This document shows positions 940 through 63,300 of a stretch of 64,000 bases of DNA, one piece after another (positions within the stretch are counted from its first letter, which is position 1; the number at the start of each line of letters is the position of its first letter). Origin of the DNA: Sphaerolaimus hirsutus (lineage: Eukaryota > Nematoda > Chromadorea > Monhysterida > Sphaerolaimidae); contig OZ038460.1 of the NCBI GenBank assembly GCA_964036195.1, positions 18,045,504 through 18,109,503 of the forward strand. Reading direction: 5' to 3'. The notes beneath the pieces are model-generated. The model was not told the DNA's origin. It searched no databases and worked only from the letters and a program-made list of their open reading frames with translations. The translations under genes were made by a program, and so were the position numbers.

Positions 940-3900
940 ATGACACCATGGCAATATATCCATGATCAAACAGCTCTTTTAATCACATTTTGCATATTTG
1001 CATTGCTAGCAGTAGCTACATTTGCTGACCTGGAGAGTGCATGCAATGGCTTGGCTGAGCCCCACCTGTATGAACACCAGGTGACAATCCCAAGCCCTGT
1101 AAAGTGTAAAGTGAAGTGAAGTGTCAAATGTGAAGTCAAGTGTCAAATGCAAAGTAAAGTGTCAAATGTAATGTAAAGTGTCAAATGTAAAGTCTAATGC
1201 AAAGTCAAATGTCAATTGTCATCTAAACTGTTTAATGTAAAGTAAACTGTTGATTGCGTAAATTTTTTTGTATCCAAATCTTATGTGAAAAAAAATTGAC
1301 TTTACTTTTGACACTTTGCATGACAATTGACACTTGAATTTGCATTTGACTTTACATTTGACACATTGCATGACAACTTTCATTTGACTTTGCTTTTGAC
1401 TACATTTGACACTTTACTTTACACTTGACAGTGCTTGGGACTGCCCCCAGAACTGCATCGTGTACCATAGCACACCGACCAAGAACTGGTGGGATGCGGC
1501 AGACTCTTGCAATGATATACCACCAGGTGATTTGACATATCTATTTTTGTTTGTGCAAGGTATATGAGAATAGGTGTTAGGTGCATCCTGGCCCCTGGGG
1601 GCTAAATTCAATTGGCTTGGCAGATTTGTCAGACAGTGCATTATGATTAGCACATGATCAACATGTTACCAGATCATTGACATTGATGTTGAGGAAAGCC
1701 ATTCATGATATACATAAAATATGCATTCAACATTGTAAAGCATTTTACACAAGGTTTCAATGGAAAATGATAGTGTTGGTATTTATTGGCAACAGCCTTA
1801 ATATATAATTTGAGTTTTTTGGTCTGGTGGTTATTCTTAAAATGTATACTACAAATGACTATCCATGCACAATTATCTTCACATTAACAGCATGCCAATC
1901 ATGGCTCACATGCAACACTCATAATGCGATTTTTCTTTTAGAAGAATTTTTATGGTTAAGTTATATTAGTTGCCATACTGTCAGCAGCAAGACAGAAACT
2001 CTACATTTTTCAAGTCTGCAGAATAGATCTGTTTTCAATTTAATTTTCAATATTTGCATAAAACTTAACAGGTTCAGACTCAGCACAAGGCCACCTACTT
2101 CATACAGTAGATGGACTCACTGTTAACCACCTGTGTGGAATAGCTCCATGTGAGTTTTCATGGGCCTGTTTTGTTCACCGTAATTTTTACCACCAAGCTT
2201 GGTTTAGGATTCCATAAATGGCCAGTTCCCCATTAGACAAAAAGTCTTTTAATGATTTGTTTAAAAAATACCTTGTTAGGCATGCCATGTGGAAATCTAT
2301 GCATACATGCAACTTTTTAGCAAAAAATATAAGAAAAACTAATATAGAAAATATTTTTTTTTATTGTTTGAAGCACCTTAACTTGAAATCTGTCAAAAAT
2401 TTGAGTTGATGTGGGCAAAAACTGTTGACTTTTGAGTCACAGCCATATTTTTCAGTCAAGTGGAGCCTTTTGACCATTTTTCAAACACTTTCTAAAAGTG
2501 CTACAAGGAATCTTACCAGGAAGTAATGCACATAACTTGACTTTACCTGCCAATTTTACCTCAACTTGAGACTCAATGTTCACTGTCTCAACTCACTGAC
2601 TGGGAATTTGTGGAGACTATGACTCAAACTTGAGTTTTGAAGAAATTGAATTTCCAGCCCTGAACCTACATTTTAGGTACTGCTTTTCATGTGGGGCTGT
2701 ACAATGTGGAGAGAAATCGTGGTGCCCGCGGCTGGTCAGTATGGTCTTGCAAAACTGTGGGAAATCTGTGAAAAAAAATGAAAATATGTATGAACTATCT
2801 TCTATTGAAATTATATTTGTTTCTCTCAAAAGCTTCCTTGTGGCATCATCCTTTTATTAAAAACTTTTTCAACTGAACAGGTACTATATGTGGAATTCAA
2901 CAACATCTACCAAAGCTGAACAGCCTCCTGAATTTTGGGTTTGGTACGGGACAGATCCAAATGAGCCCTCTCAAACAAGGAGCTTATGGATATATTGGGA
3001 TGTCAATCCGGTTCATTAAATTTTTTTCTGGCTTAAAATGAGTGATTGACAAAATAAAATGTATTTACCTAAAAATGGAGTATTCCTGATACATGGTAAT
3101 TTGGAGTTGATTTGATACTTGTTATTCTGCATGCACAACAGGTTTAGATTGACCATGAACATGGTTTCCTTTGCAGGTAAAATATGATAAAATTGCAACA
3201 CACAGTGGACCATATGCTTGCCAGTATTCCAAAAGTGCCAATGTCAAAATGGTTAGTTTGTTATCTTCAGCCAGTGATGGAAAAGCACCAGTAAAATGAC
3301 ACCGTTGTGTATTCAAAAATAGTATGCTGACTGATACACAGTACCAATCTCTTCAGCTGCAATTACAGATCAGTTGTGTTGTGAAAAAATTATGGCACAA
3401 AATTATGTGTCACACATTTTTTTGGCAAACATAAAACTATAGTCATTTCCATGTATGTTGGATGTATGTTGGTGTGTGTCCAACCTTCTTAGGGCTATAT
3501 TAAATGTAAAAATTCAATGTCAAATAAAATTTGAAGTTCCATGTGATGTTGCATGTGATGCATTCAACATTCACCAAAAAATTGGAAATGATAAAATCTA
3601 GTAGAAAAAAGTTTAAAAAATACATTCAAAGTTTGAAAATTTTAAATTGAAAAAAATCATTCTAGGAATAATAAAAATTTTTACACTTTTTCCAGGTGGT
3701 TTGTAATCTTTACTTAAGAAGAGGTTATTTAGGGGTTACTTTCTCCCAACCCAGCTCTACCTGGGTGTTGTTCGAGGGAGAAAGTTCTAGGTAAAATGGA
3801 GGCTCAAAAATGCAGGTGTTGGTGCAAAGTCATGCTGGCAAGAAGCCAAAAGTGAGCACTGGTGCACAGTTGGCCAGGGAGACTGGGGTGGGAAATGCAA

Positions 3901-4893: not shown

Positions 4894-5077
4894 GAGCCAA
4901 TCCCAGAGTCCAGACCCTGTAAAATGTCAAATGTCATGCAAAGTGTCAAAAGTCATGGAAAATGCCCTGCAAAATGGCAATTCGGTTGCCATTTTGCGTG
5001 GCATTTTCCATGACTTTTGACACTTTGCATGACATTTGACGTTTCACAGGGCATTTTACAGGGTCTGGGACTGCCCT
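4894..5077 (+). mobile_element. Introner-family element, variant without a GT donor
   Basis: The ends are GAGCCAATCCCAGAGTCCAGACCC and GGGTCTGGGACTGCCCT, flanked by CAG at 4891-4893 and 5078-5080. The interior is made of AAATGTCATGCAAAGTGTC units in inverted orientation around a perfect central hairpin near 4962-5035. The first bases are GAG instead of GTG, so on this reading it lacks a splice donor. It sits in a GC-rich stretch (GAAGCGGCGCG palindromes at 4810-4890). No exon is recognised around it. Confidence 0.65.
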
Positions 5078-13497: not shown

Positions 13498-16400
13498 ATG
13501 ACATCCTGGAAATATTACATCCATAATCAAACACAACTTTTGATAACATTTTGCATATTTGCATTGCTAGCAGCAGCTACCTTTGGTGACCTGGAGAGTG
13601 CATGCAATGGCTTGGCTGAGCCCCACCTGTATGAACACCAGAACTGCATTGTGTACCATGGCACACCCACTAAGGACTGGTGGGATGCTGCAGATTCTTG
13701 CAATGATATACCACCCAGTGAGTTGACATATTTTTTGATATATAAATTTGCATGTGAAATGTTTGTTTGTGCTGGGTAAATAGGGATAGGTGTAAGGTGC
13801 ATCCTGGCCCCTGGCCCCACATTTGATTGGGCAGGCAAATTTCTGCCCTCCGCACCCGGCACCTGACACGCCTGTCATCATGCATGCCAGGCAAAATTTT
13901 GTAAATCTAGATTCAATTGCGTCCTGCATGCCAGGCACCTGAAACACCCGACGCGCCTGCCAGGCGCGCCCTCACGAGTGCCTGACTTGCCTGAAAATTG
14001 CAAAATAAGATTTAATTGTGAGGGCATGCCTGGCAAAATTTTACAGAACATGAAAAATGTGCCCTGCATCCTCAGAGGTGCAGGGCAGGTAACTTTTCAC
14101 GTTTTCAGTTTGTCCTTTTCCATAGTGTATCCAAATATTTTTTTTGTATCCAAATATTTTTTCTCATCCATCTAAATGCATCCAAGTACATAGTGCATTG
14201 AGAAGCATCTTACACAAGGTTTCTTCAACTGTAAATAAATGAACGTGTCGGCATTTATTGGCAACAGCCTTTATATGTAATTTGATTTTTTGTCTGGTGG
14301 TAATTCTTAGGATTTGTATACTATAAAGTTATCCATGCACAATTATGTCTTCACATTAACAGCATGCCAATCATAGATCACATGCAACACTCATGTGATT
14401 TTTTTGTTGGTCTACAAAAATTTAATGTTGAGTCATAGTTGGCATGATGTCAACACCAATCCAGAAACTCTACATTTTTTAAATTTCCGGAATGTATGTA
14501 TTTTCAATAAAGTCATATTTGCATAAAAATAAACAGGTTCAGACTCAGCACAAGGCCACCTGCTTCATACAGTGGAAGCACTCACTGTTAACCACCTGTG
14601 TGCAATAGCTCCATGTAAGTTTTCATGGCTCTGTTTTGTTCACCCAAAATCCTAAACCCACCAAAGTTGGTTTAGGATTCCACAAATGGCCAGTACCCAA
14701 CTAAAACGTCTTTTAATGACTTGTTAACAAAATCCTTAGGTGTTTGGCATTATACAATATTGTATGATGAGCCATTCAACAATAAAATCCTACATAATTG
14801 TGTGTGCCATGTGAATTTAGCAAAAAAAAAGATATGAAGAACTAATATAGAAAAATATTCATTTATTTTGGGCATGATTGTTTGAAGCACCACAACAACT
14901 CGAACTCTGCCAAAATTTGAGTTGATGTGGGAAAAAAGTTTGACTTTTGAGTCACAGCCATATTTTTCAGTCAAGTGGAGCCTTTTGACCATTTTTCATC
15001 TAGAGTCATTAGTTGAGTCAAGTTCAAGCCCTATGCACGTAGGGTGTCAAACATTTTTTTCCGGAAAACAGAGATCAAAAATGTTTTGCACTTGCCAGAA
15101 AAAGGAAATCACAAAAAAATTTGTACTTGGCGGAAAACGGAAACTGAAAATTTTTTGGCACCTACCGGAAAACGGAAAATGGAAAAATTAAAACCCGGAA
15201 AGCAAAACTGAAACAGAAAAATTTGTTGAAGTTCTGCCAGAAACGGAAAAAATTGCTCAAATTTTAACGGAAACAGGAAAAATTTGCAGAAATTTCCAGT
15301 TTGGCTGAATCAGAAAACAACATTTAGCTGGAAAAGGTGGAAAGGTGGAGAGAAAAACAAAAAGAAAATTTAGCCAGAAAACAGAAAAATGGCGGAAAAA
15401 AAGAACATTTAGCCAGAAAAGCGGAAACAGAAAATAATTTCAGCGTCCGTAACATGGAGATGGAAAAAATTCAGCGGGTCGGCAAACGGAAACGAAATTT
15501 TTTTGCCTGTGGAAAACGGAAAGTTGACAGACACACTATATGCAAGGGCAGAAGTGAAAGCATTGATACAGCAAACAGTGTCTATAAGTTCTGCAAGGAA
15601 TCTTACCAGAAAGTGATGAACTCAACTTGACTTCTGACTGGAGATTTTGCCTCAACTTGACACTCAGTGTTTGCTGTCTCAACTCACTGACTTGACTGGA
15701 AATTTGTGGAGGCTATGACTCAAACTTGAGTTTTAAAGACATTGAATTTCAGGTTCTGAACCTACATTTTAGGTACTGCTTTTCATGTGGGGCTGTACAA
15801 TGTGGAGAGAAATCGTGGTGCCCGCGGCTGGTGAGTATGGGCTTGCAAAGATGCGGGAAATCTGTGAAATTTGGATGAAAATATGTATACTCGGCTGACC
15901 GCATGCTATGCATTTTTCTGAAGGAAACACTCCGTCATGACGTCATCGTTAATAATTAGAATAAAAATAATTCCAGCAAAAAAAACATGACGGGAAAAAA
16001 AACATTCCTCGTTTGTACGCGACTCCGCCTTTTTCTTTTTAAAAATGTATTTTAAATTTAAAAATTTAAATTTAAAAACGCCATTTAAAAATTTCCTTTC
16101 CTTTTCCAGCTCGCGCGTTATCGACCAAGAAATAAATAATTTTGGGCGCATACTTTGCGGTCCGCCGAGTATATGTATAAACTACCTTCTATATACCGTA
16201 TTTCCTCGAAATACCCCCCTTTGAATTAACCCCCCCTCAAATTACCCCCAGGGGCCAGATTCAATTCTCCCTACAGATTTGTAGGGTAGGGCAGGGCGTA
16301 TGCCCGATAGATTTTTTAAACTTCAGCCGCATCGACGCACATGCACCGAGAGCAAAGCGGTTTGTAAAATATACGAAACCATCCCTTAACGTCGCCGATA

Positions 16401-19182
16401 TTGCAATATGACGTATATTGCTTCGATTTTGGCCCGGAAATTACTATTTCGTCATTTCTTGGCCGTCTGCCAATTCGCTTTTTATTTTATTTTGTCGGGC
16501 GGGTTACTCGCATAAGTCGCGCTTTGGTGTAGTCAGGTGGTCACTTTTTTAGTGTTCACTGTCTGCAACCGAAACCAGCGACAAGAAAGAAATGCATGCA
16601 CGAGCGTACAAAAGCGTGACTTATGCGAGTAACCCGCCCGACAAAATAAAAAAAGCGAATTTACAGACGGCCAAGAAATGACGAAATAGTGATTTCCGGG
16701 CCAAAATCGAAGCGATATACGTCATATTGCAATATCGGCGACCTTAAGGGATAGTCTCGTGTATTTTACAAACCGCCTTGCTCTCAGTGCAAGTGCGTCG
16801 ATGCGGCTGAACTTCAAAAACTCTATCGGGCGTACGCCCTACCCTACAAATCTGTAGGGAGTATTAAATCTGGCCCCAGTTGTTTTCGAGCTGAGGAAAA
16901 AAAAACCCCTCGAAATACCCCCCCCCCTCTGGAATAAGGTACATCATGTATGCAAGGAACATGATGTATTTATTGCGACCATTTTACATCGCAGTTATAC
17001 GTACACGCTAGTTTGTGTAGCGATGTACGTTTACGTCCATGTTATGTCCCTACATACCCTATTTGGTCACGTTTATTACCGGTTTGGGGTATGTAAAAGC
17101 ATATTCTTTAGTATGACCTTCCCGAAAATTTATGACGAAATAATAAACCGCCCCCTCGAATAAGCCCCCCCTCGAAATACACCCCTCAAAATTTCCACTC
17201 TGAAAAATAAACCCCCTGAGGGTGTTTCGAGGAAATACGGTAAATTATATTTGTTTCACTAAAAAGCTTCTTTGTGGCATCATTGTTTTATGCATAGCTT
17301 TTTGAATTTGACAGGTACTACATGTGGAATTCAACAAGATCTACCGAAGTGGAACAGCCTCCAGAGTTTTGGTCTTGGTCATGGCCAGACCCAAATGAGC
17401 CCTCCCAAACAAGGAGCTTATGGATATATTGGGCTGGCTCTGTGGTTCATTCTATTTTTTCCAGCTTAAACTAAGTGATTGAGTAAATAAAATGTATAAA
17501 TAAAACCTGAGAATTTGTACAAATGCTTGTACAGATTGTACAAATGGAGATGCTTTCACAACACATTTTTGGCAATTACTAACAATAGAAACCCTATGAA
17601 GGAAAGTGTCCAAATCAGTGTCCTTAAATCAGTCTCCAAATATAAAAATATTCTTCCAAAGATTGTCCATAAATTTTCAAATTTATTACCGTATTACCTC
17701 GAATTATTCCCCCCCCCCCTTGAATTAACCCCCCCCTCGAAATACCCCCCCTAAAATTCGGCTGAGGAAATAATAACCCCCCCCCTCGAAATACCCCCCC
17801 TAACATTGAGTGTAAAGAGAACGTACATGACAAATACTGCAGTTTGTGATTTGTACAATGCAGAACACACGTTAAAACTGATGATTGAGTGACGTTATGG
17901 AAGGGTTTATATGTATATACAGTTATGTATACCTATAAATACATATACATCTATGTAATTGTTCGATTTTTCTATGTCCGAGTATGGGGAATTTCCGAAA
18001 ATTTCTGGCGAAATAATAGACCCCCCCCCCTCGAATAAACCCCCCCTCGAATTATCCCCCCCTCAAATTTTGCTGGCGAAATAATAAACCCCCAGGGGGT
18101 ATTTCGAGGTAATACGGTATTTGAAAAAATATTCTTTGCCTTTTTAGGTATATTTTTTGCCAGGTCCTGAATCTATAATTGCTGACCACTTTGAAAATGC
18201 TTGTATTTGATAGTTGTTCTTCTGCTTGAAAAAGAGGTTTATATTGACAGGGAGCATGGTTACTTTTGCAGGTAAAATATGATGTAATTGCAACACACAG
18301 TGGACCATATGCTTGCCAGTATTCCAAAAGTGCCAATGTCAAAATGGTTTGTTATCTTCAGCCAGTAATGGAAAAGCACCAGTAAAATCACTAAAAATGA
18401 CACCATAGTGCATTCAAAAAATGAGTGCTGACTAGTACACAGTTCCAATCTCTTAAGCTGCAATTACAGCTCAGTTGTGTTGTGTAAAAGTATGGCACAA
18501 AATTTTGTGTCACAAATTTTTTTTGCCAAACCTAAAACGGTTGTCATTTCCTTGAATGTAATGTTGTAAATAATTTCAATAAAAATAATGTAAAAAATAA
18601 TGTAATGTAATGTTGGTGTCCCTCTTATAGCTATATTAATAGTCAAAAATCAATGTCAAATAAAATCTGAAGTTCCATCAATTGGTCATTGGATGTGATG
18701 TATTCAACATACACCACAAAGAACCACACAGACACATTCAGTTTGAAAAGTTTAAATTCAAAAAGTTTTGTTGCAGAAAAAATAAATTTAAACACTTTTT
18801 CCAGATGGTTTGCAATCATTACTTATGAGGCGGCTATTTGAGGTGTCACTTTCTTCCCACCCAGCATCCTGGGTGTTTTTCAAGGGGGAAAAGTTCAAAG
18901 TAACATGGTGGCTCAAAAACGCAGGTGTTGGTGCAAAGTTATGCTGGCAAGAAGCCAAAAGTGAGCACCGGTGCACAGTTGGCCATGGAGACTGGGGTGG
19001 GAAATGCAATTTTCTGCAGGATGTCCTGTCTGAAAAAGTGGACTGCATCCCTGTGCAGGGCGGTCGCCTATGACAAGTATTCCAGAGTTTGCCTCCATTC
19101 AGCCACATTAACTCAGAGGTGGGACATGTGGGAGAGTGACACCAGTGGAGTTGGCTGGGAGGTTTGGCAGTTGGCTAAGTGA
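13498..19182 (+). CDS. Secreted C-type-lectin-like protein, paralogue B (introner-free exon 1)
   Basis: Exons 13498-13717, 14537-14614, 15773-15830, 17315-17444, 18272-18346 and 18925-19182 give about 272 residues. Exon 1 here is the fusion of exons 1 and 2 of the other copies: EPHLYEHQNCIVYHGTPTKD is read through without a break, so this copy keeps the state without intron 1. The signal peptide core is LLITFCIFALLAAATF. Other motifs are DWWDAADSC, AQGHLLHTVEAL, FHVGLYN, EFWSWSWPDPNEPSQ and PYACQ. Many differences from copy A are synonymous, so both have been under selection. Introns 2-5 are swollen by mobile elements (15040, 15889, 16196, 17699). Near 18800-18910 this copy has several one-base indels relative to A, C and D, so the region just before the last exon is not coding here. 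The upstream in-frame ATG at 13447 is not conserved; 13498 is chosen because it matches copies A and C. Confidence 0.66.
13790..14100. repeat. GCCAGGC/CACCTGAC array insertion in intron 1 of copy B
   Basis: Compared with copies A and D, this intron contains an extra block rich in GCATGCCAGGCA, CACCTGACACGCC and GAGGGCATGCC units, with CCTGGCCCC and GTGCAGGGCAGG near its edges. Related arrays occur at 23260-23480 and 27060-27230. It is probably another array-type mobile element; clear ends were not found. Confidence 0.4.
15040..15538. mobile_element. hAT-like CGGAAAAC-array element in intron of copy B
   Basis: Ends TAGGGTGTCAA / TTGACAGACACACTA are flanked by TATGCACG (15032-15039) and TATGCAAG (15539-15546), 7 of 8 identical. 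It is a second, more decayed copy of the family at 6992. Copies A, C and D lack it in the same intron. Confidence 0.7.
15889..16170. mobile_element. ACTCGGC-ended MITE in intron of copy B
   Basis: Inverted ends ACTCGGCTGACCGC / GCGGTCCGCCGAGT are flanked by ATATGTAT (15881-15888, 16171-16178). The site is undisturbed in copy A (AAATATGTATGAACTA). Related sequences with TACTCGGC ends occur near 8310, 27415 and 46577. Confidence 0.65.
16196..17240. mobile_element. TA-flanked CCGTATTTCCTCG MITE containing a fold-back element
   Basis: Ends CCGTATTTCCTCGAAATACCCCC / GTGTTTCGAGGAAATACGG are flanked by TA (16194-16195, 17241-17242). The 16251-16877 fold-back sits inside it. It lies in the intron before exon 5 of copy B. 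Confidence 0.75.
16251..16877. repeat. Long fold-back element (inverted arms of about 250 bases)
   Basis: It begins GGGGCCAGATTCAATTCTCC and ends GGGAGTATTAAATCTGGCCCC. The left arm (CCTACAGATTTGTAGGG through TTGTCGGGCGGGTTACTCGCATAAG) is mirrored by 16618-16877 with few mismatches, with a short unique loop near 16520-16610. No ORF of interest is present. Confidence 0.75.
17699..18117. mobile_element. TA-flanked CCGTATTACCTCG MITE in intron 5 of copy B
   Basis: Ends CCGTATTACCTCGAATTATTCC / GGTATTTCGAGGTAATACGG are flanked by TA (17697-17698, 18118-18119). Subterminal blocks are C-rich at the left and contain CTCGAATAAACC-type units at the right. Confidence 0.75.
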
Positions 19183-21805: not shown

Positions 21806-23888
21806 TATCTCTGTCATAAACCGACAACAAATTTTGAACAAAAAAGTAAGATAAATATAAAATATAAAAATTATTTAAAATTCAACAAAATTTTAGATTC
21901 GCTCATCAGATCACGTATCGGGTATAATGGATTTCACAGTAAAGTTGGCCGACATTTCACCCTACAAAATCGGAGAGTTAGAATTCGCTCGTGAATAGAG
22001 CGAACAACGAAACTTGTGTCCCACGCGGACGCTAGAAATTGAAACAGAAAATCATATTAAAAGAAAAATGGACGTTTCGCCGCGTCCGTGCGTGCCACGC
22101 CCTAGTTATCTACATTTCCAACGTTGCTCGTAAAGAATTTGACCGTTCAAACTACCGTTTTACCGTTCAAACTACCGTTTTTGTTTTTATTTTATTTTTC
22201 ATTCGTTGGCTCCGTTCCAACAGAAGAGAACTTGGCAGCCGGCCAAAATTTCGAAATCCGCTATTAATATGAATAAAATAGGCTCACAATAGCTATATAA
22301 CCATGTGTATAATCAAAAATAGCGATTATGAAGGTGGAAATTAACAAGGAGATCCAAATTTTAACGATTTTTAGCTAACTTTCAGTTTTATTTATTTATT
22401 TTGTTTGTATGGGATACAGAACCCTACCAACGAGTTGGTTACGCCCTTCCCTAACAGCTCCCGAAAAGAAAAAGAAAAATCGGAGATACGTCTGAAGAAA
22501 ACTTGGCAGCCGGCCAAAAATTTCGAAATCGCCGAAAATTTAAAAAAATCGGTATATAACCATGTATAAAGATGAGAATAGCGATTATGCAGGTTGCAGT
22601 TTTCAATATGGAGCGATTTTGGGCAAGAAAAGGGGGAAAAATCGCTCATAATTTGCTACATGTAAATAAATTGTTGCAGAGCGATTTGGGGGGGGGGGGG
22701 TGAGGAGATAGTGGAGAAAAAATTTGCCTCTGGGTAGATAGATAGCTGAGAGGCATCCGGGGGCTGTCCCAGACCATGTACAAAACCCTGTAAAGTGTAA
22801 AATTCCTTGTAAAATGTCATGTGTCGGGTAAAAGACCCTCTAAAATGTCAAATGTCATGTAAAAGACACTGTAAAATGTCTATTGTAATGGAACACGTTA
22901 AAAATTGCCAAAACCACAAATGTTAATTTTTATTGTCCTAATTTCAAAAAATACTGTGCACGAATATGATGGTTGATGAAATAAAAGTGCAAAAAAATTG
23001 TGGCACCTTAGGCCATGTTTGAACACAGGACCTGTGAACTCCCAGCAGAAACACATACACATCGACCACAGGACAAGTGCTCATTCTGTCTTAGGAACCA
23101 TCATATTCAAACACTGTATTTTTTAAATTTGGACAATAAAAATCAATGTTTGTGGCCACGCTTTTTGCAATTTTCAATGTTTTTCATTACATCTGACATC
23201 CTCAGATGTTTATTTTTATCTAAATTTAAAGTTACAACCATAAATTATCCTGAACGTTTGCCCACCCTGCACCTCTTGGGCTACAGGGCAGAATATCCGT
23301 TTTCGTTTTCATTCTGCCTGGCAGACGTGCAATTGCCCTCACAATTTAATCTCGTTAGCCATTTTTTGGGCAAATCTGGCACGGGTGAGGGCACGTCTGA
23401 CAGGCGCTTGGTCGTGTCAGGCGCCGGGCAGGCGTGACGTGAATTTCATATTCAATTCTCACATTTTGTCGGGCACGTGACCGACAAAATAAAAATAAAA
23501 ATAATATTCCGCCCTCCAGCAAAATAATGATGGGCAGGAAGAAAACTAGGTTGATAAAAATCCCAATTTAGAAAAAAAAACTATGAATATTTATTAAATA
23601 GATACGCACACTTCACAATGTATCCACTGTGGATTTCGGGCCTCTTTCCTCGAATCTCAACACATTCTCAGCACACAGTGCCCCACCCCAAATACAGGTT
23701 GGCCCAAATGCATGTCAACAGTTCTTTTGCTTGCGTTGACATGTTTCACTCTTTCTGAAATGGCCAGCGAACGATTTTTAAAAGGATTTTTAGGGCATTT
23801 TTTGGACATTCGAACGGAGTCGGGACGAATTCGTACACTTTTCGCTTATTTGCGTGTCATAACATTTCCACGCAGCAAGTTTCAAAAT
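21806..23888. other. Region with no recognised gene
   Basis: Several ORFs of 60-140 codons have no conserved partner, signal or domain that I recognise. At 22490-22560 a stretch (CTTGGCAGCCGGCCAAAA) repeats part of 22230-22260. A G run is at 22688-22699. A half introner lies at 22759-22895 and a GCAGGGCA-type array at 23260-23480. Confidence 0.35.
22759..22895 (-). mobile_element. Truncated introner-family element
   Basis: One end, GGGGGCTGTCCCAGACCATG, is followed by GTAAAGTGTAAAATTCC and GTAAAATGTCAAATGTCATG units typical of the introner arrays. The opposite inverted end is not found, so it appears cut off near 22895. Strand is given by analogy with the minus-oriented copies at 30806 and 61116. 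Confidence 0.45.
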
Positions 23889-30805: not shown

Positions 30806-30997
30806 GGGGCAGTCCCAAGCCCTGTAAAGTGTAAAGTAAAGTGTCAAATGTAAAGTCAAATGCAAAGTCAAGTGTCAATCAAAACAAAAAAGAAAAGATT
30901 TTATTGCTGAACTTTGCATGAAAATTGACAGTTTACTTTGCATTTGACTTTACATTTGACACTTTACTTTACACTTTACAGGGCTTGGGATTGGCAC
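30806..30997 (-). mobile_element. Introner-family element in non-coding DNA, filled site
   Basis: On the minus strand it reads GTGCCAATCCCAAGCC … GGGCTTGGGACTGCCCC followed by CAG. The plus-strand flanks are CTG at 30803-30805 and 30998-31000. The homologous sequence at 9461-9480 (GTGTAATTGGTGTCTGGTTG) has no insertion and only one CTG, giving a direct filled/empty pair and a 3-bp duplication. It keeps GT and AG at the intron positions although no exon is evident here. Confidence 0.85.
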
Positions 30998-31331
30998 CTG
31001 GTTGTTGCTTTCATTATTCTGATTGATATCTTATATTTTTATCTGTTTGTACATTTTTCTAGTGAGATGCAGTGAGATAAATTTGAATGCAGCATGGAAA
31101 ATAATAATGATAAAACATGCAACAAAAATTTCACGGCAAATTATCAAGGAATTTTTCATAAGCACACAGCATCACTTCAATCTCAAGGCACTCAGTGCCC
31201 ATTGCATTTCTATTTGTGCTCAATTGGCCCTACACTCTACACACACTAGTTTTGACTGTGACTTGGGTGAAAACTGAAATGGCCACATGGCGACATTCAG
31301 CCTAGTCTTATTGTATGCTATAAGTGTTTTA

Positions 31332-31592
31332 CCGTATTTCCTCGAAATACCCCCCTCGAAATACCCCCCCTCAAAATGGGGACTATGAATTTGTGGTTCT
31401 TGAAATGCATAACAGACGTTCAAAACACTTACTGTGTTACGTTAGAACATCGTTTATACCATCTACATCCTTATATAAGGCTGTAAAAACTTATAAATGG
31501 TGGTTATTGTTGCATTTTTCACGTTTTTCACTCAAAATTTTCACTCTGAAAAAATAAACCCCCGGGGGGGGGGGTAATTCAAGGAAATACGG
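31332..31592. mobile_element. TA-flanked CCGTATTTCCTCG MITE
   Basis: Ends CCGTATTTCCTCGAAATACCCCC / GGTAATTCAAGGAAATACGG are flanked by TA (31330-31331, 31593-31594). It is the simple form of the element at 20074. Confidence 0.8.
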
Positions 31593-40044: not shown

Positions 40045-43000
40045 ATGACACCATGGCAATATATCCATGATCAAACAGCTCTTTTAATCACATTTTGCAT
40101 ACTTGCATTGCTAGCAGCAGCTACATTTGGTGACCTGGAGAGTGCATGCAATGGCTTGGCTGAGCCTCACCTGTATGAACACCAGGTAACAATCCCAAGC
40201 CCTGTAAAGTGTAAAGTGAAGTTAAGTGTCAAATGTGAAGTCAAGTGTCAAATGCAAAGTAAAGTGTCAAATGTAAAGTAAAGTGTCAAATGTAAAGTCT
40301 AATGCAAAGTCAAATGTCAATTGTCATGCAAACTGTTTAATGTAAAGTAAAGTGTTGATTGCGTATCCAAATTTTTTGTATCCAAATCTTATGTCGAAAA
40401 AAAAATTGACTTTACTTTTGACACTTTGCACGACAATTGAAACTTGAATTTGCATTTGACTTTACATTTGACACATTGCATGACAACTTTCATTTGACAC
40501 TTTACACTTGACAGTGCTTGGGACTGCCCCCAGAACTGCATCGTGTACCATAGCACACCCACCAAGAACTGGTGGGATGCTGCAGATTCTTGTAATGATA
40601 TACCACCAGGTGAGTTGACATATATACTGCGGTTACTTTACACCCTGCTGGAAGTGTGCCAACGATGGTTAAAGCGTCCGAGTTTCATAAAAAGATGACA
40701 AAATTGATTGTTGTTATAATGTTTTTCATAAACATATTCACATCGATGAATTTTTTTCATATTTTTACGGAAATCGCATGATTTAATAATCATTGGCACG
40801 CTTCCAACACGAGACATAAATCAGTGTGAGGGCAGAGTATCACGTACGCCGAGTATACCTATTTTTGTTTGTGCAAGGTATATGAGAATAGGTGTTAGGT
40901 GCATCCTGGCCCATGGATGCTAAATTCAATTGGCCTGGCAGATTTGTCAGACAGTGCATTATGATTAGCAGATAATCAACATGTTACCACATTCATATTG
41001 AGGAAAGCCATTCATGATATACATAAAATATGCATTCAACGTTGTAAAGCATTTTACGCAAGGTTTCAACGGAAAATGATAGTGTTGGTATTATTGGCAA
41101 CAGCCTTTATAAATTAATTGAGTTTTTTTTGGTTAGGTGGTTATTCTTAAGATGTATTTATACTAAATACAAATGTCTATCCATGCACAATTATGTCTTC
41201 ACATTAACAGCATGCCAATCATGGCTCATATGCAACACTCATAATGCAATTTTTCTTTTACAAGAATTTTATGGTTAAGTTATATTACCGTATTTCCTCG
41301 AAATACCCCCGGGGGGTTTATTGTTTCAGAGTGAGAATTTTGAGGGGGGGTTAAACGAGGGGGGGGGTATTTCGAGGGGGGGGTTTATTATTTCGTCAGA
41401 AATTTTTTGAAATCCCAGTACTAAAATGTCGTCTGAAACGTACGCAGACGACGAAAAATGCAACAAAAATCGCCATTTATAAGACTCTAAAGACATTTAT
41501 AAGAGTGTAGATGTACAAATACTGTTCTCACATAACAGAGTCATCGTTTTTAACGTGTGTTCTGCGTTGCCCGGATGACAAACCGCAGCCTTTGTCATTT
41601 ACGTTCTCTATACACTGAATTTGGGGGGGGGGGGTATTTCGAGGGGGGGGTTTATAAGTTCATAGTGTCCATTTTGAGGGGGGGTATTTCGAGGGGGGGG
41701 GGTATTTCGAGGGGGGGGGGTATTTCGAGGAAATACGGTAGTTGCCATACTGTCAGCACCAAGACAGAAACTCTACATTTTTCAAGTCTGCAGAATAGAT
41801 CTGTTTTCAATTTAATTTTCAATATTTGCATAAAACTTCACAGGTTCAGACTCAGCACAAGGCCACTTACTTCATACAGTAGATGGACTCACTGTTCAGC
41901 ATCTGTGTGGAATAGCTCCATGTGAGTTTTCATGGGCCTGTTTTGTTCACCGAAAAAATTTACCACCAAGCTTGGTTTAGGATTCCATAAATGGCCAGTT
42001 CCCCATTAGACAAAAAGTCTTTTTATGATTTGTTTAAAAAAATGCTTGAGGTGTTAGGCATGCCATGTGGAAATCTATGCATACATGCAATTGTTTAGCA
42101 AAAAATATAGGAAAAACTAATATAGAAAATATTATTTTTTTTGTTTGAAGCACCTTAACTTGAAATCTGTCAAAAATTTGAGTTGATGTGGGCAAAAACT
42201 GTTGACTTTTGAGTCACAGCCATATTTTTTCAGTCAAGTGGAGCCTTTTGACCATTTTTCAAACACTGTCTAAAAGTGCTACAAGGAATCTTACCAGGAA
42301 GTAATGCACCTAACTTGACTTTACCTGCCAATTTTACCTCAACTTGAGACTCAATGTTCACTGTCTCAACTCACTGAGTTGACTGGGAATTTGTGGAGAC
42401 CATGACTCAAACTTGAGTTTTGAAGAAATTGAATTTCCATCCCTGAACCTACATTTTAGGTATTGGTTTTCATGTGGGGCTGTACAATGTGGAGAGAAAT
42501 CGTGGTGCCCGCGGCTGGTGAGTATGGTCTTGCAAAACTGTGGGAAATCTGTGAAAAAAAATGCAAATATGTATGAACTATCTTCTATTGAAATTATATT
42601 TGTTTCTCGCAAAAGCTTCCTTGTGGCATCATCCTTTTATTAAAAACTTTTTCAACTGAACAGGTACTATATGTGGAATTCAACAACATCCACCAATGTT
42701 GAACAGCCTCCTGAATTTTGGGTTTGGTCAGGGCCAGATCCAAATGAGCCCTCTCAAACAAGGAGCTTATGGATACATTGGGATGGCAATTCGGTTAATT
42801 CTATTTTTTCATCTTAAAATAAGTGATTGGCAAAATAAAATGTATTTACCTAAAAATGAGTATTCCTGATACATGGTAATTTGGAGTTGATTTGATAGTT
42901 GTTATTCTGCTTGCACAACAGGTTTAGATTGACTATGAACATGGTTTCCTTTGCAGGGTGGTAAGTATGATATAATTGCAACAAACAGTGGATCATACAC

Positions 43001-47231: not shown

Positions 47232-47431
47232 NNNNNNNNNNNNNNNNNNNNNNNNNNNNNNNNNNNNNNNNNNNNNNNNNNNNNNNNNNNNNNNNNNNNN
47301 NNNNNNNNNNNNNNNNNNNNNNNNNNNNNNNNNNNNNNNNNNNNNNNNNNNNNNNNNNNNNNNNNNNNNNNNNNNNNNNNNNNNNNNNNNNNNNNNNNNN
47401 NNNNNNNNNNNNNNNNNNNNNNNNNNNNNNN
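47232..47431. other. Assembly gap (200 N)
   Basis: A run of exactly 200 N, a size commonly used for gaps of unknown length. The 5' part of lectin copy D (promoter, exon 1 and the left half of its introner) should lie here. Confidence 0.98.
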
Positions 47432-47624
47432 AATCTTACGTTTTGTGTATCCAAATCTTATGTCGGAACAAATTGACTTTACTTTTGACACTTTGATTGA
47501 CAATTGACACTTGAATTTGCATTTGACTTTACATTTGACACATTGCATGACAGCTTTCATTTGACTTTGCTTTTGACTACATTTGACACTTTACTTTACA
47601 CTTGACAGTGCTTGGGACTGCCCC
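47432..47624 (+). mobile_element. Introner-like element of lectin copy D, right half
   Basis: GACTTTACATTTGACAC-type arrays end in GTGCTTGGGACTGCCCC, followed by CAG (47625-47627) and the AAC codon of exon 2, as in copies A and C. The left half is in the gap. Confidence 0.75.
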
Positions 47625-47627
47625 CAG

Positions 47628-50259
47628 AACTGCATCGTGTACCATAGCACACCCACCAAGAACTGGTGGGATGCTGCAGATTCTTGCAATGATATACCAC
47701 CAGGTGAGTTGACATACCTATTTTTGTCTGTGCAAGGTATATGAGAATTGGTGTTAGGTGCATCCTGGCCCCTGGATGCTAAATTCAATTGGCTTGGCAG
47801 ATTTGTCAGACAGTGCATTATGATTAGCACATGATCAACATGTTACCAGATCATTGACATTGATGTTGAGGAAAGCCATTCATGATATACATAAAATATG
47901 CATTCAACGTTGTAAACCATTTTACACAAGGTTTCAATGGAAAATGATAGTGTTGGTATTTATTGGCAACAGCCTTAATATATAATTTGAGTTTTTTGGT
48001 CTGGTGGTTATTCTTAAAATGTATACTACAAATGACTATCCATGCACAATTATGTCTTTACATTAACAGCATGCCAATCACGGCTCACATGCAACACTCA
48101 TAATGCGATTTTTCTTTTAGAAGAATTTTATGGTTAAGTTATAGTTGCCATACTGTCAGCAGCAAGACAGAAACTCTACATTCTTCAAGTCTGCAGAATA
48201 GATGTGTTTTCAATTTAATTTTCAATATTTGCATAAAATGTAACAGGTTCAGACTCAGAACAAGGCCACCTACTTCATACAGTAAATGGACTCACTGTTC
48301 AGCATCTGTGTGGAATAGCTCCATGTGAGTTCTCATGGGCCTGTTTTGTTCACCGAAAAATTTTACCACCAAGCTTGGTTTAGGATTCCAAAAATGGCCA
48401 GTTCCCCATTAGACAAAAAGTTTTTTTATGATTTGTTTAAAAAAATACCTGAGGTGTTAGGCATGCCATGTGGAAATCTATGCATACATGCAATTTTTTT
48501 GCAAAAAATATAGGAAAAACTAATATAGAAAATATTTTTTTTTTATTGTTTGAAGCACCTTAACTTGAAATCTGTCAAGAATTTGAGTTGATGTGGGCAA
48601 AAACAGTTGACTTTTGAGTCACAGCCATGTTTTTCAGTCAAGTGGAGCCATTTGACCATTTTTCAAACACTGTCTAAAAGTGCTACAAGGAATCTTACCA
48701 GGAAGTAATGCACCTAGGTAACTTGACTTTACCTGCCAAGTTTACCTCAACTGGAGACTCAATGTTCACTGTCTCAACTCACTGAGTTGACTGGGAATTT
48801 GTGGAGACTATGACTCAAACTTGAGTTTTGAAGAAATTGAATTTCCAGCCCTGAACCTACATTTTAGGTACTGCTTTTCATGTGGGGCTGTACAATGTGG
48901 AGAGAAATCGTGGTGCCCGCGGCTGGTGAGTATGGTCTTGCAAAACTGTGGGAAATCTGTGAAAAATAAATTAAAATATGAACTAGTATGAACTATCTTC
49001 TATTGAAATTATTTTTGTTTCTCTCAAAAGCTTCCTTGTGGCATCATCCTTTTTTTAAAAACTTTTTCAACTGAACAGGTACTATATGTGGAATTCAACA
49101 ACATCCACCAATGTTGAACAGCCTCCTGAATTTTGGGTTTGGTCAGGGCCAGATCCAAATGAGTCCTCTCTAACAAGGAGCTTATGGATCGTTTGGGATG
49201 GCACTTGGGTTAATTCTATTTTTTCATCTTAAAATAAGTGATTGACAAAATAAAATGTATTTACCTAAAAATGAGTATTCTTGATACATGGTAATTTGGA
49301 GTTGATTTGATAGTTGTTATTCTGCTTGCACAACAGGTTTAGATTGACCATGAACATGGTTTCCTTTGCAGGGTGGTAAGTATGATAAAATTGCAACACA
49401 CTCTGGATCATACACTTGCCAGTATTCCAAAAGTGCCAATGTCAAAATGGTTAGTTTGTTATCTTCAGCCAGTGATGGAAAAGCACCAGTAAAATGACAC
49501 CGTTGTGTATTCAAAAATAGTATGCTGACTGATACACAGTACCAATCTCTTCAGCTGCAATTACAGCTCAGTTGTGTTGTGGAAAAATTATGGCACAAAA
49601 TTATGTGTCACAAATTTTTTTGGCAAACATAAAACTATAGTCATTTCCATGTATGTTGGATGTATGTTGGTGTGTGTCCAACCTTCTTAGGGCTATATTA
49701 AATGTAAAAATTCAATGTCAAATAAAATTTGAAGTTCCATGTGATGCATTCAACATTCACCAAAAAATTGGAAATGATAAAATCTAGTAGAAAAAAGTTA
49801 AAAAAATACATTCAAAGATTGAAAATTTTAAATTGAAAAAAATCATTGTAGGAATAATAAAAATTTTAACACTTTTTCCAGGTGGTTTGTAATCTTTACA
49901 TAAGAAGAGGTTATTTAGGGGTTACTTTCTCCCAACCCAGCTCTACCTGGGTGTTGTTCAAGGGAGAAAGTTCAAGGTAAAATGGTGGCTCAAAAATGCA
50001 GGTGTTGGTGCAAAGTTATGCTGGCAAGAAGCCAAAAGTGAGCACTGGTGCACAGTTGACCAGGGAGACCGGGGTGGGAAATGCAATCTTCTGCAGGATG
50101 TCGTGTCTGAAAAAGTGGACCACATCCCTGTGCAGGGCAGTTGCATATGACAAGTATTCCAGAGTTTGCCTGCATGCGGCTGCATTAACATATAGGTGGG
50201 AGCAGTGGGAAAGTGACACGAATGGAGTGGGCTGGGAGGTTTGGCAGTTGGCCAAGTGA
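47628..50259 (+). CDS. Secreted C-type-lectin-like protein, paralogue D (exon 1 missing in gap)
   Basis: Exons 47628-47703, 48247-48324, 48868-48925, 49079-49208, 49372-49449 and 50002-50259 are seen, 678 coding bases. Motifs are NWWDAADSC, EQGHLLHTVNGL, FHVGLYN, EFWVWSGPDPNESSLTRS, WIVWDGTW and SGSYTCQ. Donors are mostly GTGAGT; exons 5 and 6 use GTTAAT and GTTAGT. The last exon keeps the 85-codon frame ending EVWQLAK, with an A-for-T change (TTGACC) and several silent changes. It is the copy least altered by mobile insertions. The signal peptide exon is presumably hidden in the N gap, so whether the gene is complete cannot be judged. Confidence 0.66.
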
Positions 50260-60353: not shown

Positions 60354-63300
60354 TGGATCCAAACTCGGCCTCAGCGCCCGCCTCTGCGCCGCGCACGACC
60401 CTAGCGGGGCGGCTGCAGCTGGCATACACATCGGAGATGGTGTGGTGCGATGTGTCGGTGTCCATCGTGCGATCAGGGCTGAACCGCATCATGTCGGATG
60501 GGTCGGGCACATACCCGCGCCTGCCGCGGATGGCGCCGGGGCCCAAATCACACATCTCGTAGAGTTTCGCTGTTTAGTGGGGTGGGAAAGTTTGGAGAGT
60601 TTTGAAAAATTTTGCTGACATTTTCACATTTTTTTGCACACATTTTTGCAGGGTTTTGGAGGGTTTTTTGGAAAAATTATAGATGATTTTGAAAGATTTT
60701 GGGAAGGTTTTATGAAAATTTACTACAACTACCGACGTCCCCTAATTTGTCCGAGGGAACACCCGATAACACCCCTCACATCTACGCGGGCGTGCAAATC
60801 GCCGTCAATGCTGTTCCTGGCATCAGGCCGGGGGGGTTGAAGATGCTCCCCCCAACATACCGAAATCTGACGCTCATTTCACAAAAAATTTTTCGAGAGG
60901 AATGTGTCACGCATTTCGGCTTTTTACAGTACTACTTTAGATCCAACATCTATGCTACATACCTTACAAATAGCCAAAAATGCGTGACACATTCCTCTCG
61001 AAAAAAATTTTGTGAATAAAGCACCTGCCAGGGCCCTGTCGCGTGGCGGGATGACGGGTAGGGGCGGTCTAGCCGGAGGGTCCTGAGCCTGGGGGTCCTG
61101 AGCCGGGGTGTTCTGGGGCAGTCCCAAACACTGCAATTAAAGTGTCAAATGTCATGTAAAATGTTGTTGTTGTTGTTGTTGTTGTTGTTGATCGAAAAAA
61201 GAATAAGATTTAAACTCTTTGGATGACATTTCAAATGACATTTTACATGACATTTGACACTTTAATTGCAGTGTTTGGGATTGTCACCTGAGCGCTGCTG
61301 GGGCCCTGAGTTGGTACGCCGGGCGTGCGGCGAGTCAGCTTGCCCCCCGTGAAAAACTGAAATGTTTGTTGTTGTTGTTGTTGTGAAAGAGTACAGATAA
61401 AGAAGAATTTTACATTTTTTGAATTCAAGAATGAGTAAAATTTTTTATAACCACTATGTCTGTCAACTCACATCAAAAATCCACTTGATGGCAGCCACGA
61501 AAATGATCATGGCCAACTTTGTGCCGGCCATATAGCATTATCCTCCATTTTGTAATACCAGTCATTCATATATGACTCGATGCGCCTGCTGCTGACCATG
61601 AGGCGGCGCGCATCTTGATGAGCCGATCGGATTTGGCCATCAAGCGCTCCAACTGCGTTTATGTAAAGTGATGGTGTGCTTTGGTTGAAGACTAGGGATG
61701 GTTGTCATTTTTTTTTTAAAAATTGAATTTTTAATCCTACCCTCCATGCGTCCTTTGCATGATGGTTGAACGCACAGCTGCGCATGCGCCTGCTATTCTG
61801 ATGTTTGCCTAGCAGCAAGTGTCACTACTACTACTAATTGTGATAGGTTGTTAGGGGGATTTGCTACTTGAACTTGCTGCTAGGCAAACATCAGAATAGC
61901 AGGCGCATGCGCAGCTGTGCGTTCAACCATCATGCAAAGGACGCATGGAGGGTAGGATTAAAAATTTGATAAAATATTTGTTAAATATTTATTTATTAAC
62001 GATAAAATATTTGTTAAATATTTATTTATTAAACCATTGAGTCAACAGTAAAAAGTTTTTTGTTTAAAAAAAAATATTTATTTATTCAACCATTGGGTCA
62101 ACAGTAAAAAGTTTTTTTGTTTAAAAAAAAAATATTTATTTATTCAACCATTGGGTCAACAGTAAAAAGTTTTTTTGTTTTAAAAAAATATTTATTTTTT
62201 AAACCATTGAGTCAACAGTAAAAAAGTTTTTAGAAATTGTTTAAAAAAATATTTATTACAAATTTTGTATTTTTTAAATCAAGGATTTGAAAAAACTGCT
62301 GTTCAACCAACCACCCCTATACATTGTATTAGTTGTTGTGTTATTAGTACCTATGAGTACCTTGTCCACCACCTCCTCATGAAGAATAACACCCCCATCA
62401 GCGGGAGTGCCGTACTCCTCCAAAATGGATTTAGCACTTTGCACAACAGATGCAAAGTGGGGGGTTGCCGGGGGGTTCACAGCGGTCGTCGTGCTAAAAC
62501 ACCGAACACCAAACTCAAAATTTGTTATTCAATGTCAGGTGGTTGAAAAAAATCAACACTGATCAACTCACACTTTTGTGGATGGTGCAAAATCACGACA
62601 AAGGTTCCTAAAATAGCTCGGATCGTCCAAAACCGTGCGCACAGCTTTGTAAAATTCTTTGATACTGACCGGGGTTGTGCTCTCAATTGTAGTCAAAAAC
62701 GGGGTAACTGTGCCGTTGGGTGGGGAGGGAGGAATCTACATATAGATAGCTGAAGTATAGCATTTGTCATTATATTACCAACCAACCAACCAACATTCAA
62801 AACATACCCAAATAATCCGTGGAGTGCAGGGGGGTGGGGTAGAGCAGGTTGGGTGGGGTGGGCAGGGGCACTTGCTAGCGCACATTTTGCATTCACACGA
62901 CATGGATTTGATTCTACACCAGCTTTCGTCACCTTTCGGTGACCGCACCATCCATACGGGTTTGTTGATCGGTGTCGTGAAATCAGTAGTACTGGTACCG
63001 GTGGTTACTGACATGGTAGTAGTAGTAGTAGTAGTTGTGTCAGTAGGGGGGTGTAAGCTTGTCAACTTACCACTCAGAGCGGGTGGCTGTATGCCATTAA
63101 AATAAGTTTTTATCGCGGCGGCCAAAAACTTTCATTCATATGCATACATGCAAAAAAAAAAGAGTGCAGAATGCAGAAAAAATGCAAAAATTTTTACTGT
63201 GTAGCTAGCTAGCTATGAATAACAGGTGCTGCTGTTTTGCCTACCCTTTGCATATACACTTATGAATATTTATAATCACCCATAAAAATACCCACCATCT

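Follow-up and report, generated by a model that had tools for sequence, protein, structure and literature searches.

A short DNA transposon with a GT at one end probably acts as an intron where it has landed at a CAG in the sense of the host gene, and its copies would then make up a new family of introners. The sites that point to this lie in copies A to D of a lectin-like gene in the window, the 64,000-nucleotide stretch of DNA that we analysed (G000:C16:18045504-18109503, in a genome of 348.5 Mb); a further filled copy, E (C16:17986226-17986618, 393 bp), lies 59 kb ahead of the window start. In A and C, the element stands between CAG and AAC with the CAG duplicated on each side (Table 1), and copy B has a single CAG within CACCAGAACTGC, which is continuous over 13636-13647. 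When the element is retained, copy A reaches a stop after 12 codons; when CAG is joined to AAC, the reading frame is that of copy B. Copy D is a partial observation because the left part of its element lies under 200 N (47232-47431). D and E are identical across 1497/1497 aligned bases, with 193/193 in the element, and one of the two may have arisen by recent duplication or be duplicated only in the assembly. A sequence-only reading of the window had reported filled sites in A and C, an empty site in B and the right half of an element in D, all of which we confirmed. Its account of the anatomy, a GT end, a CCCC end and a CAG duplication supplying the acceptor AG, is also correct as far as the sequence goes, and splicing would be the prediction from it.

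Table 1. Features of the filled and empty sites and of two family copies elsewhere in the window.
Feature	Position in window	Strand	Remark
Target-site copy 1 (CAG), copy A	1078..1080	+	last bases of the exon ahead of the putative donor
Element in copy A, GTGACAATCCCAAGC...GCTTGGGACTGCCCC, predicted new intron body	1081..1447	+	367 bp
Target-site copy 2 (CAG), copy A	1448..1450	+	predicted splice acceptor
Copy A first coding exon, 3' end ...CACCAG	940..1080	+	gene model
Copy A exon 3' of element, begins AACTGC	1451..1526	+	gene model
Copy B exon without break	13498..13717	+	empty-site CAG 13639-13641
Copy C first coding exon	40045..40185	+	gene model
Element in copy C, begins GTAACAATCCC	40186..40530	+	345 bp; CAG 40183-40185 and 40531-40533
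Copy C exon 3' of element	40534..40609	+	gene model
Copy D, right part of element, 193 bases	47432..47624	+	CAG 47625-47627
Copy D exon 3' of element	47628..47703	+	sequence
Family copy outside lectin-like genes, CAG, GTGCCAATCCC...GGGACTGCCCC, CAG on minus strand	30806..30997	-	192 bp
Family copy outside lectin-like genes, CAG, GT...CCC, CAG	about 61115..61287	-	173 bp; plus-strand CTG 61113-61115 and 61288-61290

The lectin-like gene models were drawn by eye from conserved exon ends. Copy A has six exons (558 nt) in an open frame with every intron GT-AG, and so has copy C (561 nt); exons 2-5 of D and 1-2 of E are also open, D being read over exons 2-5 only, with its last exon in a different frame at the chosen exon end. 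The name lectin is a by-eye label only. A Pfam search with the spliced protein of copy C matched no family, and a homologue search with the spliced lectin-like protein (about 5.8 billion proteins, 81 candidates scored) found none at E≤0.001. Differences in exons versus introns were 31/558 versus 60/1369 between A and C, 30/416 versus 58/1378 between A and D, and 16/419 versus 93/1378 between C and D. Exons thus showed no consistent extra conservation, their differences being lower in C-D and not in A-C or A-D, so these rates give no demonstration of constraint after the insertion. Exons 1-5 of A and C are separated by 8 synonymous and 15 non-synonymous differences. Another repeat, TACCGTATTTCCTCGAAATACCCCC..., G-/C-rich, has several copies in the window (e.g., 31330-31590, 41290-41740, and 16200-16940), some of them in or next to the lectin-like genes.

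By its structure, the element is a non-autonomous, MITE-like DNA transposon that has unequal ends and duplicates a 3-bp CWG target site (target-site duplication, TSD). Its end motif occurs 9 times in the window versus 1.63 expected, a count that 0 of 100 shuffles reached. Across the genome, BLAST with element A gave at least 106 matches on both strands, a lower bound from 40 scored of 3135 first-look candidates; exact matches numbered 355 for CAG+GTGGCAATCCCAAGC and 354 for CTG+GTGGCAATCCCAAGC, and reversed-pattern controls had 0 matches genome-wide. CWG is thus the target, with CAG and CTG next to the GT end equally often and no orientation preference. The two ends, GTGGCAATCCC and GGGGCAGTCCC, begin with GT and GGGG, respectively. 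Among 21 copies with both ends recognised, taken from the window and BLAST-fetched loci and not selected for the GT end, the pairs were GT/GG in 19, GT/AG in 2 and GG/GG in 0; over all loci collected up to that point, the 61 pairs were 57 GT/GG, 2 GT/AG, 1 GT/GA, and 1 GT/GT. Looser ends delimited 71 copies (48 from CAG-search loci, 21 from BLAST loci, and 2 from the window), and CWG flanked 60 of these on both sides, as CAG/CAG (41), CAG/CTG (11), CTG/CTG (5), or CTG/CAG (3). The W was equal in 46 of the 60 and unequal in 14 (e.g., L040, L062, and L019), which simple duplication does not account for; at a guess, it might be due to gene conversion or to heteroduplex repair. The 36 short copies (185-230 bp) lie 0-5% from their plurality consensus, with four exceptions at 15-25%, and the family consensus folds as almost one long inverted repeat.

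At 5063-5077 and 22760-22774 of the window, ends (GTCTGGGACTGCCC) resemble those of a related subfamily and may be the partner of GTGCCAGTCCCAGAC elements at L014 and L019. Elsewhere, in G000:C2:29541000-29640000 (L100-L103), family copies with a near-identical left flank lie within 100 kb, a stretch that resembles a segmental or tandem array carrying the element.

How could such an element be spliced? An insertion at a gene-sense CAG with the GT end 3' of the first CAG would read, with exon borders as slashes, CAG/GT...TTTAC or TTGAC...C-rich...CCCCCAG/exon. The element would then supply the donor, branch-point-like motifs and a C-rich tract, and the second CAG would supply the acceptor. The TTTAC or TTGAC by the right end, about 22 bases ahead of the acceptor, may serve as the branch point. 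Splicing to the end of the second CAG would give back precisely the reading frame that preceded the insertion. Against this reading, the donor GTGGCA matches the donor consensus GTRAGT only weakly; an extra AG (in TTTACAG or TTGACAG) stands 19 bases 5' of the acceptor, the use of which would shift the frame. Only one of the four gene/target configurations, sense and CAG, directly gives a spliceable layout, so that the earlier description of the element as spliceable may hold for gene-sense CAG insertions and does not extend directly to the other configurations. In the lectin-like cluster, element E begins with GTGGCACTCCC, similar to the family end GTGGCAATCCC, and A and C begin with GTGACA and GTAACA; it is possible that these two copies drifted toward a better donor. 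Mobilisation by a NuwaI-type DDE transposase would fit the TSD and the end sequence.

The same family interrupted other genes independently, as the junctions show. We listed 100 of the 355 CAG places and read 71 of them in batches of 30, 21, and 20; a right end was found at 41/50 loci of the first two batches and 15/20 of the third (in which L094 and L095 look like one duplicated segment), the remainder not being joinable. At 3 of the 71 places, MRPL16, PPIP5K, and a trypsin-like gene, the joined flanks had database support across the junction, and all three are in gene sense, CAG being fixed by the choice of sample. Scaled to the 355 exact-end copies, this would correspond to roughly 15 introns, a figure with a broad error that takes no account of diverged copies. 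In MRPL16 (L043, near C1:13423870), PF00252 matched across the junction with E 1.8e-13, and the alignment to mammalian MRPL16 is gap-free there; the new intron position is indicated by the protein alignment only. This element copy has 0 differences from the consensus over 192 bases, and may therefore be too young for a judgement on whether the gene is intact. In the trypsin-like gene (L090), PF00089 matched across the junction with E 1e-4, over its cut-off, and a structure search with the piece had no match.

PPIP5K is the cleanest second case among these predicted introns. On C2 (L093, junction C2:24311537/24311812), the exon is split at ...IYYPS/TVGAG..., and the joined piece aligns gap-free to PPIP5K2 of PDB (E 1.2e-32), a Pfam search with it giving no match. 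The exon query matched C2 in two pieces that flank the element (residues 1-39 and 37-85), whereas in the paralog on C7, residues 5-52 matched as one 48-codon piece (63% identity, no stop), and the DNA there spans the site with an equal number of codons; the rest of the query follows there after a gap at a different position. PF18086 matched at two places in the genome, C7 (in two pieces, with internal stops that may be introns) and C2, beside the exon described here. The borders of the C2 exon are a pyrimidine-rich AG and AAG/GTGGGT. Empty homologous sites are thus present for copy B of the lectin-like genes and the C7 paralog of PPIP5K.

Outside the 71-place sample, C2H2 zinc fingers on C16 carry a 171-bp CAG/CAG copy and a 354-bp CTG/CAG copy, both in frame, the unequal W of the latter yielding a usable AG. 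At this locus (G000:C16:17499493-17505300; L019, L089), at least three family members interrupt in frame, the third being a 982-bp CTG/CTG insertion that begins with GTGCCACTCCCAGACC and is in frame with the fingers. Since this copy has no AG at its 3' TSD, the locus may be broken or spliced otherwise. Counting the lectin-like copies A, C, and E, PPIP5K, MRPL16, the trypsin-like gene, and the zinc-finger junctions, similarity reaches both boundaries of the putative introns. The genome-wide search named as a check by the sequence-only reading thus returned hundreds of copies, a few of them in other conserved genes with frame-exact junctions. Its proposal that insertions make introns is favoured by these junctions in some genes, but most sampled copies lie outside recognisable coding sequence, so the element is in the first place an ordinary MITE.

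Several candidates were left uncounted. L053 resembled an insertion into coding sequence, but downstream of it the frame reads by eye as BEL/Pao gag-like with a stop; Pfam matches were below cut-off only, and another search gave nothing better than E 0.66. L070, a receptor-like C-terminus by eye, had no structure match and Pfam matches only below cut-off, and L014 (lectin-like by eye) and L081 had no Pfam match. An antisense family copy was also seen at L077 (C2:9510800-9513800), shortly past a TTC30-like exon and apparently in its intron by eye.

We compared flanks joined in the sense and antisense directions. Among ten sense joins picked by length and look, including one that stems from the CTG/CTG copy L078, three exceeded the Pfam cut-off (two zinc-finger, one L16), as did one of two further sense joins. 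Of the eleven longest antisense joins, ten gave 0 Pfam matches above cut-off and two weak ones below; the eleventh, L078, had already gone into the sense set. Because the two sets were chosen by different rules, the comparison is a control and not a significance test. Spanning open frames of at least 100 residues were found in 26/100 sense versus 15/89 antisense joins, only a mild difference, and a score based on amino-acid composition failed to tell sense joins from antisense ones (43 versus 36 open of 88).

Was the intron gained in the lectin-like cluster, or lost from copy B? In the DNA 3' of the site, A, C, D, and E differ from B by 19-21%, versus 5.8% for A-C, 3.4% for A-D, 6.0% for C-D, and 0/1497 for D-E; 5' of the site, the distance is 3.4% between A and C and about 20% from either of them to B. 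The 5' distances with E (35-37%) were left out of the comparison because the stretch ahead of its first exon is probably non-homologous. With B as an outgroup at 19-21% and A, C, and D only 3-6% apart, a gain after the B split is simplest, in agreement with the earlier proposal of a gain in the ancestor of A, C, and D. The elements of A, C, and E are 3-6% apart, on par with their host introns, which argues that the intron was inherited and not gained repeatedly. An intron older than the B split, which B then lost to precise excision or to gene conversion by a copy with an empty site, would fit the absence of a footprint in B, and precise excision is known for PIF/Harbinger elements. It requires two events, however, versus one for a gain, and with B as the outgroup, we regard it as very improbable. 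These comparisons support one insertion in the cluster, after the B split and before the split of A, C, D, and E, followed by inheritance of what would be a new intron.

Any clean insertion leaves the frame continuous once the element and one TSD are removed, and such continuity is by itself no proof of splicing. The insertions could thus go unspliced and the host genes or copies be broken, the frame-exact junctions merely reflecting clean transposition. The stop met in copy A would fit this, as would the lectin-like exons of A-C and A-D diverging at least as much as the introns, the consensus-identical MRPL16 copy, and two hits on coding sequence, one at a neutral site in a degenerate BEL/Pao-like retroelement copy (read by eye) and one lacking a spliceable layout, the zinc-finger CTG/CTG insertion. 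Yet the PPIP5K exon is intact and holds an element with a right end that deviates from the consensus, and the three database-supported sample cases share gene sense (with CAG by sample choice). The lectin-like exons (six in A and C, 2-5 in D, 1-2 in E) are also open after 3-6% divergence since the insertion, which is moderate evidence only. On balance, we find unspliced insertions unlikely. A MITE may also have merely landed within pre-existing introns, as MITEs often do, and the majority of sampled copies lie outside recognisable coding sequence, with the antisense copy near the TTC30-like exon apparently intronic. In A, C, and E, however, each end of the element falls exactly at an exon end, and copy B and the PPIP5K C7 paralog are intronless at the site, which leaves this explanation a negligible probability. 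Insertion at gene-sense CAG with the element itself acting as the intron is thus the reading that we prefer.

The system resembles known introners. PMC9860276 describes short copies of non-autonomous DNA transposons that serve as introns, with TSD and TIR, mostly precise insertion, and one splice site carried by the element while the other is recruited from the TSD; according to its Fig. 2C legend, the Chrysochromulina introner carries the 5' site and co-opts the 3' site. Since the same splice-site strategy occurs there in another lineage, the kind is already known. The elements described here differ in the 3-bp CWG TSD, the counted symmetry of CAG and CTG (spliceable and unspliceable) targets, and the host, which by its MRPL16 and PPIP5K similarity and its gene style looks like an animal, intron status being predicted. 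Boundary-to-boundary similarity and empty sites were both found, consistent with the introner identity suggested in the earlier reading. What is new to us is this family, its CWG symmetry, and its probable animal host. No paper among the matches listed in open-licence PMC joined NuwaI or Harbinger with introners. Gozashti et al. reportedly described in 2025 how horizontally transmitted transposons give rise to introns, and their catalogue may already include the family.

Short length, TIRs, a 3-bp TSD, and high copy number are shared with Tourist-like MITEs of PIF/Harbinger, of which the target is TWA and for which we know of no systematic splice-site end. The 5'-CWG-3' TSD is that of the NuwaI group of PHIS (PIF/Harbinger-like) elements, which are found in animals and whose first TIR bases are usually GGG (PMC4482050); the main text of that paper uses the word 'intron' 0 times. 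Here, one end has GGGG and the other GTGG. As the latter lacks GGG and no transposase is linked, NuwaI membership is likely rather than proven. An autonomous NuwaI partner would carry a DDE transposase and a Myb/SANT ORF. A search found 163 genome matches to DDE_Tnp_4, none of them linked to family ends, and on C1, by-eye comparison of the listed places found no CAG place within 10 kb of a listed transposase. Most listed matches cover 147 positions in about 633 bp and contain in-frame stops. The extra 192 bp, a common MITE length, raised the element as an intron of the transposase itself, but L110 has no family ends, and its transposase interruptions look like ordinary introns (one copy, by eye).

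More tentatively, and with more doubt than confidence, an active NuwaI-type MITE may be making introns at scale in an animal, its GT end being fixed because spliceable insertions survive. If so, equal targeting of CAG and CTG would let insertions at CTG or in antisense serve as an internal control for selection on new introns, and the consensus-identical MRPL16 copy would be a very recent intron gain, possibly still polymorphic. Reports of introners in animals are rare: a survey of 835 animal and land-plant genomes (PMC9860276) has them in only two groups. For this family, more than one unrelated gene shows the insertion site, the putative donor and acceptor, and the empty state with base precision. 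Since CAG and CTG are hit equally, the fates of spliceable and unspliceable insertions are comparable within one family, and the tolerance of new introns would become directly countable.
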